In this document: positions 48,803 through 51,269 of the stretch, piece after piece
How positions within the stretch are numbered: the stretch's first letter is position 1
Layout: each line of letters opens with the position of its first letter
NCBI GenBank assembly: GCA_016124895.1
Contig: WGMU01000070.1
Location: 1-64,000 of the forward strand
Reading direction: 5' to 3'
DNA length: 64,000 nt
From: a bacterium
GTDB lineage: Bacteria; Planctomycetota; Planctomycetia; Planctomycetales; Planctomycetaceae
Position numbers and translations under genes: made by a program
The notes under the pieces: model-generated
Database searches by the model: none
What the model was told of the DNA's origin: nothing
The model's input: only the letters and a program-made list of their open reading frames with translations

Positions 48803-50167
48803 TTAGCGATCCTCGCCGTCGGTTCGACCGGGAATCTCGCGGCCGTGCGGGTCGTGTTCGGGATGTTCCAGTTCGTCGGCGATCTGCGAGACCAGAGGTT
48901 CGTCCAGAAAGTGCTCGACGCGATGCGCCATTTCGTCGAGATGGTCGTCCGGCAGCGCGAAGTGCCGCGCCATGTAGGACTCCCACAGGCGGTGAGAACG
49001 AATCAGATGCTGCGCTGCGGCACGGCCGGGGTCGGTCAGCACGGGATCTCCGGCGTCGACGGTCACAAACCCCTGACGAGCGAGTCGCCACACGGCCAGG
49101 CGTCGAATCAGTGGCTCGCAGGCTGCCGGCCAGCCGGCAGGAATGACTCGCGGAGCGGTTGTCCGTTCCGATTCCTGCTGCCGGTACAGGCCACCAAGCA
49201 AATCCTCGCAGGCCATGCGAAGTCCAAAACGAATGCGTCGCGCGGCGGCGGAGACGATCCCCTTCTGCGGACTCAGCAGCACCGCCAGCAGCAGCAGCAG
49301 GCCGCTCGACACCGCCGTCATCCCGGCGGTCGAGGAATCATCCACCGTCGTGAACCCCAGCGGCCGGAACACCAGCGCCGGAGCCACCAGAGCCAGCACG
49401 TGACCACCGACGGCTGAAACGGCTGCCACTCCGACGGCGACGGCCAGCAGAGAACTCAACCGCGACGTCAGCAGCGACGCGGTCACAGCCGGGACGATCA
49501 GCATCGTCAGAACCAGAATACTGCCGACAGACTCGAACGCCGCGACCAGTGACATCGACGTTGCTGCCATCAGCGCGTAATGCACGAGCGCCGGACGGTA
49601 TCCGAGATTCGACGCCAGCTCGGCATCAAACGTCGTGATCCGCAACTCCTTGAAGCACGCACCGACCAGCAGCAGATTGACGGCCGCGACGCTCAGGTTG
49701 ATCACGAGTGCCTGCGGAATCGACGTCGAACCAACCGTCTCGAACACGATGGTTTCAATCGCCCCGAACAGGACACAATCAGCGTCGAGATGCACGTTGT
49801 CGGCGAACAGGCGAACCAGCAGCAAACCGGCGGCAAACAGCGACGTATAGACAACGCCCAGCGCCGCTGCCGCTTCGACGCGACCAAGCCGCTGCACCGC
49901 GTCGGTCAGAAACGCCGTCAGCACTCCGACAACCGCCGCTCCGACCAGAACGACGAAATGCCCGGTCGCTCCCGACGTGCCACTTGCTCCCGCCCACCAG
50001 TGAGCGAGCAGAAATGCGGTCACGATACCCGGCAGCGCGGTGTGGCTCATCGCATCGCCGAGCATGCTCTGCCGCCGGAGCATTAGAAAGACGCCGGGAA
50101 TCGCGCACGAGACCGCAGCGGCCATTGCCGTCAGCACGATCCAGGTATCAAGACTGCTCCAGGTCAT
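48803..50167 (-). CDS. Metal ABC transporter permease fused to DtxR-like repressor
   Basis: 454 residues from ATG 50167. Residues about 1-290 form an ABC-3 permease (MLRRQSMLGDAMSHTALPGI near 26, VVYTSLFAAGLLLVRLFADN, and the coupling region ITTFDAELASNLGYRPALVH). A cytoplasmic extension follows: a degenerate winged-helix stretch (ACEDLLGGLYRQQES, RLARQGFVTVDAGDPVLTDP) and the DtxR metal-binding/dimerisation domain (LIRSHRLWESYMARHF, DHLDEMAHRVEHFLDEPL, HPEHDPHGREIPG). This is the same layout as chlamydial YtgCR, where a repressor is released from the permease by cleavage. It likely moves Mn, Zn or Fe. ATPase and solute-binding genes are not in the window. Confidence 0.88.
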   Translation of the reverse strand: MTWSSLDTWIVLTAMAAAVSCAIPGVFLMLRRQSMLGDAMSHTALPGIVTAFLLAHWWAGASGTSGATGHFVVLVGAAVVGVLTAFLTDAVQRLGRVEAAAALGVVYTSLFAAGLLLVRLFADNVHLDADCVLFGAIETIVFETVGSTSIPQALVINLSVAAVNLLLVGACFKELRITTFDAELASNLGYRPALVHYALMAATSMSLVAAFESVGSILVLTMLIVPAVTASLLTSRLSSLLAVAVGVAAVSAVGGHVLALVAPALVFRPLGFTTVDDSSTAGMTAVSSGLLLLLAVLLSPQKGIVSAAARRIRFGLRMACEDLLGGLYRQQESERTTAPRVIPAGWPAACEPLIRRLAVWRLARQGFVTVDAGDPVLTDPGRAAAQHLIRSHRLWESYMARHFALPDDHLDEMAHRVEHFLDEPLVSQIADELEHPEHDPHGREIPGRTDGEDR

Positions 50168-50399
50168 CGCTTGTTGCTCTACCTGCAATCGCCAACGGCA
50201 TAAGCCTGCGGCAGACCCCATCGAACCTGTCAGCAGAACGCGGTCTGCTCGCTGTCGTCGGAACAGTTTCCTCAGCCCGCAAAATCCGCAAAACCACTCA
50301 AGTCTACCAGGCCTCTGATCCGAAGTCAGAGAAAGGGAAACCGCGCCGCCTGACGCTTCTGCGCGGCCGGATTTTGAGTCACCCTTCGGAACAGCTTCC

Positions 50400-51269
50400 A
50401 TGTCACGAACTGCCTGCCCTGCCCTGCTTCTGACCTTTTGTCTGAGTCTGACCGGCTGCACCTCGTGCTACCAGGGCGGCTACTACGATCCGTGTGGCGG
50501 CTGCGTCTATGGTCCCGGTTTTCAGAAGCCGAGTCTACTGACAAAGCTGTTCAGCAAAGACAAGCATCATAAGCACGACCGCGACTGTCCGCTGTGTGCC
50601 GTGGAACACGAACACGGCCACTCGCCGGACTGGTCATCACCATCCTGTGCCGCTCCCAGTTGTGCTGCACCATCCTGTGCCGCCCCGAATTGCTCAGCCC
50701 CTTCCTGCGCTGCCCCCAACTGTTCGGCACCAAATTGCGCCGCGTCGACACCGATGAGCTACCCGGTCTCTGCGAACTGTTCGGCCCCATCCAATTGCTC
50801 GTGCAGCGGCGGCGTTGCGTACGACAGCGGACCGATCGTCCATGCCCCGTCGACCTGCAGTTCCTGCGGTGGGTTTGTCGAGTCTGCACCGATCAGTTCT
50901 GGCTGTTCTGGCTGCTCTGGCGGAGTCGTCTCCGGATGTTCGAGCTGCGGAGGCGGCATGACTTCCGGCGACGTGATTTACGATGGCAGCTCTTACCCGA
51001 CCGAAGGCTTCGGCTCCGGAGGTTGCTCGGCCTGCCAGGGGGCCACGATCGGCCCAATGTACGAAGGCGAAACGATTCCGGGCGACGCTGCCGGCCAGCC
51101 CGTCAACCCAGCCCAGGCACCGCCCGCCGAGACAGAATCCAGCTCCGTTCCGGGACCTCCGACAACCTTTGTCACGCCAGGGCCGGAATCAACCATGATG
51201 ATCCCGGCCTTCGTCGAACAGCCGCAGCCGGCGCGTCAGGTCCACTGGGTGCCGAGTTCGCTCAAGTAG
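50400..51269 (+). CDS. Cys-rich pentapeptide-repeat lipoprotein
   Basis: 289 residues. A lipoprotein signal is present (LLLTFCLSLTGC, lipobox Cys near residue 20). It is followed by a Cys/Gly-rich head, a His-rich basic patch (KDKHHKHDRDCPLC near 60), and then an array of pentapeptides of the form C[A/S]AP[S/N] (about residues 82-117). Further CSSCGG and CSGCSGG clusters run to about 200, then a Pro-rich tail. Such density of regularly spaced Cys suggests a metal-binding or disulfide-crosslinked surface protein. No family recognised. It is divergent from the permease-repressor gene. Confidence 0.8.
   Translation: MSRTACPALLLTFCLSLTGCTSCYQGGYYDPCGGCVYGPGFQKPSLLTKLFSKDKHHKHDRDCPLCAVEHEHGHSPDWSSPSCAAPSCAAPSCAAPNCSAPSCAAPNCSAPNCAASTPMSYPVSANCSAPSNCSCSGGVAYDSGPIVHAPSTCSSCGGFVESAPISSGCSGCSGGVVSGCSSCGGGMTSGDVIYDGSSYPTEGFGSGGCSACQGATIGPMYEGETIPGDAAGQPVNPAQAPPAETESSSVPGPPTTFVTPGPESTMMIPAFVEQPQPARQVHWVPSSLK

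Follow-up and report, generated by a model that had tools for sequence, protein, structure and literature searches.

A cysteine-rich planctomycete lipoprotein encoded back-to-back with an ABC-3 metal permease: a candidate metal-binding partner of a split Tro-type importer

Surface zinc-binding helpers of ABC importers have been described in Streptococcus pneumoniae, where Pht works with AdcAII, and in Corynebacterium diphtheriae, where the proteins are ZnuF and ZnuG (PMC12445094). YtgCR of Chlamydia combines a permease with a DtxR-type repressor in a single fusion (PMC7755916), and the Planctomycetia possess cysteine-rich cell wall proteins with YTV domains (PMC8567305, PMC10632474). Here we compare with these systems a locus from a member of the Planctomycetaceae, located in a 64,000-nucleotide stretch of DNA (the window), in which a Cys/His-rich lipoprotein gene and a metal permease gene diverge from a shared intergenic region.

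The lipoprotein gene (50400..51269, forward strand; ATG to TAG, stop included) encodes 289 amino acids and is single copy in its genome, where a search for paralogues returned only matches of composition (E > 0.09). Its product opens with the signal peptide MSRTACPALLLTFCLSLTGC (50400..50459, forward strand), which was called by eye together with its lipobox, LTG|C20. A signal peptide and a lipobox ending in Cys are the hallmarks of bacterial lipoproteins; the GC of the lipobox is invariant in nine homologues, and Cys20 is likely the lipidated residue. The protein is rich in Cys, Pro, Ser and Gly, with totals of 26 Cys, 8 His and seven CxxC motifs. A conserved K/H-rich segment, KDKHHKHDRDCPLC (amino acids 53-66; 50556..50597, forward strand), contains the first core CxxC, an invariant CPLC. 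Beyond it lie the pentapeptide array (amino acids 83-117; 50646..50750, forward strand), a core CxC that reads CSC and is invariant in the family (amino acids 133-135; 50796..50804, forward strand), a CxxC-rich segment (CSSC 153, CSGC 169, CSSC 180 and CSAC 209; 50856..51035, forward strand) and the C-terminal motif ARQVHWVPSSLK (51228..51266, forward strand), which marks members of the family and is essentially limited to one occurrence in each genome. The array is thus flanked, as the original prediction had described, by His-rich and CxxC-rich sequence (KHHKHDRDCPLC and more CxxC motifs).

The same prediction had placed the protein in no named family, and this holds for Pfam and NCBIfam, where no family matched at E<=1, and for the PDB, where the sequence search gave no credible relative (a profile match to 9njt, E 0.012, was judged compositional). 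The Pfam result extends to the keratin B2 families PF13885 and PF01500, to pentapeptide repeat models of the A[D/N]LXX type and to the ZnuA/TroA substrate-binding family PF01297; prokaryotic metallothionein was likewise without a match in Pfam or NCBIfam at that threshold. An AlphaFold model (two sequences) had a mean pLDDT of 36 and no confident fold, and so was uninformative.

The array reads CAAPS CAAPS CAAPN CSAPS CAAPN CSAPN CAAST, that is, six exact C[AS]AP[SN] units and a degenerate seventh with its Cys in register; one isolated CSAPS stands further on, at residue 127. About seven pentapeptides with Cys at every fifth residue had been predicted, and the pattern lies beyond 20,000 shuffles: seven consecutive period-5 cysteines versus a maximum of five among shuffles of the same residues, and a CxxPx run of six versus a maximum of three among composition shuffles. 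TRF reported a 15/30-nt tandem repeat of diverged units (30-nt, two-unit period; 78% matches; score 94), and the many synonymous differences between units argue that the array is no fresh product of slippage. The one congener, G083, has an irregular version, CAAPGNCSAPSCVAPHNCSAPAVANCSAPSDCSC, and the alignment shows none in the other genera, so the array is an expansion in this lineage. Its six extra cysteines occur in this genome only, and other cysteines are well kept, including all 20 of those in G083; the array is therefore not what defines the family. The refuting outcome named in advance, non-conservation of the cysteines among close homologues, accordingly applies to the array and not to the remainder of the protein. 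Judged from these alignments, the array is a recent addition, secondary to a conserved core.

Orthologues were found in 10 further genomes, which with the present one represent four genera: G083 from the same genus, six genomes of genus g15, G084 of g37, and G001 and G002 of g2. A scan of genome contigs found the congener as the sole genome, and 398 genomes sampled evenly across the class revealed the lipoprotein in no further genus at E<=1e-4. First-pass matches in G110, G129, G013 and G025 were dropped, being either short and out of frame or low-complexity repeats. Two Cys-rich lipoproteins with CPHC/CPRC, acidic GEVI-type repeats and different neighbours, in G086 (L042:4722-5651) and G115 (L043:5436-6938), are possible distant relatives; with one family profile, A1, their E values were 4e-4 (G086) and 8e-6 (G115), and in the class draw with a second, A2, G086 was not reported and G115 was not among the genomes listed.

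Across nine aligned members, the lipobox GC, CPLC, C127, C133, C135 and C156 (numbering of the present protein) are invariant. C153, C209 and C212 join them once the two most distant members are left out. Members whose C terminus is present share R[QH]V[HN]W[VI]P, in fuller form RQVHWVPxxLK, which is conserved beside the lipobox, the K/H-rich CPLC and the CxxC/CxC pairs. Mature family members contain 5-11% Cys and 3-6% His. Comparison with the G083 orthologue (L019, cut off by a contig end) gave dN 0.15 and dS 1.03, and dN/dS was about 0.09-0.20 in close pairs generally. Close pairs within g15 keep 23/23, 23/23, 22/23, 21/23 and 17/18 cysteines, more than the 61-83% of non-Cys residues kept in close pairs; between genera, just 13-17 of 26 are kept. 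The G045 copy contains one in-frame TAG. Purifying selection acts on the ORF, which is a genuine gene.

The permease gene (48803..50167, reverse strand; start codon placed at 50167 from the sequence and homologues) encodes an ABC-3 metal permease with a C-terminal DtxR-type metal-binding domain, a YtgCR-like layout. Pfam assigned PF00950 (ABC-3, E 3e-39) and PF02742 (Fe_dep_repr_C, E 2.5e-20); the tail matched DtxR, MntR, SloR and IdeR structures with E down to 1.7e-20, and its metal-site residues, H-R-L-W-E and E-H, are invariant. The original prediction had named this neighbour a metal permease-repressor. The permease and metal-binding domains are clear; the word repressor is doubtful, since PF01325, the winged-helix DNA-binding half, has no Pfam match in this protein. 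That half is seen only where the profile alignment with chains of the DtxR family extends through the region. The permease is under purifying selection, with dN/dS about 0.05-0.09 in close pairs. Lesions that may be assembly errors or decay were seen in three genomes: in-frame TAG codons in G083 (L019, residue 56) and G002 (L053, residue 121), and a frameshift in G050 (L024, near residue 270).

Many other genera of the bacterial family have this permease at the end of an operon ordered substrate-binding protein, ATPase, permease, permease. In the lipoprotein-bearing genera, the last Tro-type permease has become detached from its operon. The present genome encodes the TroA-like substrate-binding protein, ATPase and first permease on another contig (C174); the binding protein, the genome's only PF01297 protein, has TroA of Treponema as a match (E 1e-71). 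The first permease, the genome's other ABC-3 permease (L039:3871-5532), also has a Fe_dep_repr_C tail.

The divergent arrangement of lipoprotein and permease recurs in 10 of the 11 genomes (the present one, G083, the six of g15, G084 and G001), whereas the outer neighbours differ: a D-serine dehydratase-like gene here, an MFS gene in g15 and g37, and an SDR gene in G001. G002 alone departs from this: its lipoprotein gene lies on another contig, next to genes of MFS and TetR type, and its TAG-interrupted permease has no lipoprotein neighbour. A convergent MFS transporter gene was observed downstream of the lipoprotein gene in g15, g37 and G002 (L020, L021, L022, L023, L024, L025, L041, L118). 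Permeases of the lipoprotein-bearing genera form one clade (support 0.997), which points to a single origin of the pairing. Most genomes of the bacterial family have the permease and lack the lipoprotein, so the lipoprotein is not required for transport.

Because it stands back-to-back with the permease in 10 of 11 genomes, the lipoprotein family probably handles metal outside the cell, a link whose support is confined to gene order and ligand-rich composition. The metal role found attractive in the original prediction is strengthened by a pairing kept through four genera and changing outer neighbours; either of its readings, a metal sponge or a crosslinked layer, may apply. A quite different account would make this a surface lipoprotein of low complexity whose role has nothing to do with metal, such as adhesion, holdfast or envelope spacer, its Cys richness a product of repeat drift and its neighbour incidental. 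Family members do range from 213 to 491 amino acids as repeats expand and contract, and the pairing is broken in G002. Drift of this kind fits poorly, however, with dN/dS of about 0.1-0.2, near-complete Cys retention in close pairs and a pairing that otherwise persists while other neighbours change, and we consider the account unlikely.

The shared intergenic region (232 bp, 50168..50399) contains AACCACTCAAGTCTACC, the diverged form of an element whose sequence in most relatives is AACCGKTAAAGTTTRCC (g15 and G001; the regions of L020-L025 and L075). It is a perfect GGTAAA-G-TTTACC palindrome in G001 and has one mismatch in G083. A scan of Tro-operon loci did not turn up the element, and allowing two mismatches across the genome gave counts near those of controls. 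For these two reasons its identification as a DtxR-type operator was dropped and we claim only a conserved element, which could be a promoter or operator.

CxxPx cysteine arrays recur across unrelated secreted proteins of planctomycetes. A five-Cys CxxPx pattern had DNA matches in 62 of 298 class genomes in an even draw, many of them out of frame. Of these, 30 loci were read: true secreted array proteins were encoded at L120 (CCKPV) and at L133, L134 and L138 (CCEPx), and in part at L137 (CAAPA) and L125 (CGAPA/CGTPS); L044 of G069 is an additional case. The scores of L133, L138 and L120 against the keratin high-sulfur B2_2 model exceed Pfam's cut-off. (Array-protein coordinates are L133:1399-1794, L138:1381-2283 and L120:937-2010 on the reverse strand; L134 is a further case.) On inspection the array proteins share no other sequence with the lipoprotein family, so the arrays look convergent; the Cys array of L015/L044 in G069 was likewise set aside as unrelated to the family. 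The search for the repeat in other planctomycetes, suggested at the outset, led to other secreted proteins. The set of papers searched contained none on bacterial keratin-like high-sulfur proteins or on planctomycete metal-binding repeat lipoproteins.

Keratin high-sulfur B2 proteins are classical disulfide networks, and these arrays bear on the main rival to a metal role, a disulfide-crosslinked envelope protein. Here the array and CxxC pairs would link chains to one another by disulfides and so stiffen the outer envelope, much as proposed for the YTV wall proteins, and proximity to the permease would reflect inherited chance or shared regulation. Its rank as main rival stems from the tendency of cysteines in the periplasm to become oxidised and from the presence of other Cys-rich proteins in planctomycete envelopes. 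Crosslinking is consistent with the Cys-rich proteins of planctomycete walls (PMC8567305, PMC10632474), with CxxPx arrays in other secreted proteins, several of them matching keratin B2, and with a Cys/Pro/Ser/Gly-rich composition that yields no confident fold. The lipoprotein itself, however, matches neither YTV nor keratin B2 and is a single-copy protein of four genera only; what is conserved in it is the CPLC behind a K/H-rich stretch and the spaced CxxC pairs rather than the array, and a wall protein leaves the repeated pairing with a metal permease unexplained. Taken together, crosslinking seems somewhat unlikely.

We favour, at a probability of roughly 0.4, an envelope-anchored lipoprotein that binds a transition metal, serving to concentrate or buffer the metal ahead of uptake by a split ABC importer of Tro/Znu type. 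The protein would be largely unstructured, its conserved K/H-rich CPLC and other CxxC/CxC pairs binding the metal outside the inner membrane. With such ligands the bound metal would most likely be Zn2+; Zn, Mn and Fe are all candidates for the importer substrate. The importer's second permease, fused to the DtxR-type metal-sensing domain, would be the one encoded back-to-back with the lipoprotein. The C[AS]AP[SN] array would be a lineage-specific gain of thiol capacity, with Pro-spaced cysteines in a flexible stretch, and not the core of the mechanism. We infer lipidation, location, metal binding, zinc as the metal, transfer to the importer and co-regulation. Several points weigh against metal scavenging. 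Adjacency of the two genes does not equal function, and with one permease clade the pairing has a single origin; G002 lacks the pairing, and most genomes of the bacterial family do without the lipoprotein. Cysteine retention drops between genera, and the intergenic element is diverged here and was absent from the scanned Tro-operon loci. In the periplasm, moreover, CxxC pairs are as a rule oxidised, a state that would speak for disulfides rather than metal.

An extracytoplasmic metal or redox sensor, or accessory, would also account for a clade-specific pairing with a permease that left its operon and for the conserved CxxC pairs. The lipoprotein would change state in response to metal or oxidant and adjust the activity of the permease, whose DtxR-type tail would sense cytoplasmic metal. 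The protein, however, has no signalling domain or confident fold, and there is no direct sign of contact with the permease, making a sensor quite improbable. A more specific form of the metal-binding proposal, which we hold to be doubtful, is that of a metallothionein-like Cys lipoprotein outside the cell. It would take up zinc and deliver it to an importer of Tro/Ytg type, one with a metal sensor built into its permease, and expansion of the 15-nt repeat would tune how much zinc it can bind.

Many planctomycete envelope proteins have no known role, and conserved gene order here ties an unannotated, Cys-dense lipoprotein family to a metal importer, a testable prediction. Should the family bind metal, thiols would be capturing it outside the cytoplasm, in surroundings that as a rule oxidise cysteines; should it be disulfide-linked, the little-known Cys-rich envelope of planctomycetes would gain a further component.

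Among known systems, the YTV wall proteins resemble the lipoprotein family in being planctomycete-specific, secreted and Cys-rich, whereas the lipoprotein has no YTV match (no Pfam family at E<=1) and is short, single-copy and confined to four genera. It shares with the keratin high-sulfur B2-type arrays (PF13885/PF01500) of L120, L133, L134 and L138 a Cys at every fifth residue and a Pro at unit position four, but its unit is CAAPS rather than CCEPx or CCKPV and the surrounding sequence is different. Chlamydia belongs to a phylum related to planctomycetes (the PVC group), and we know of no such lipoprotein there. The divergent partner is like YtgCR in being an ABC-3 permease followed by a DtxR-family region, with both ABC-3 and Fe_dep_repr_C recognised; it differs in a DNA-binding half without a Pfam match and in its detachment from the substrate-binding protein and ATPase genes, and the two are compared by layout. 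Unlike Pht and ZnuF/ZnuG, which use HxxHxH or other sites, the lipoprotein is dominated by Cys (by eye it contains no Pht-type HxxHxH triad, nor does it have a Pfam match to one), is predicted to be lipidated and is unrelated in sequence, its metal binding being a prediction. Like them, it would be an extracytoplasmic, metal-ligand-rich protein, associated with an ABC importer for metal and having the suggested task of catching metal and delivering it onward.
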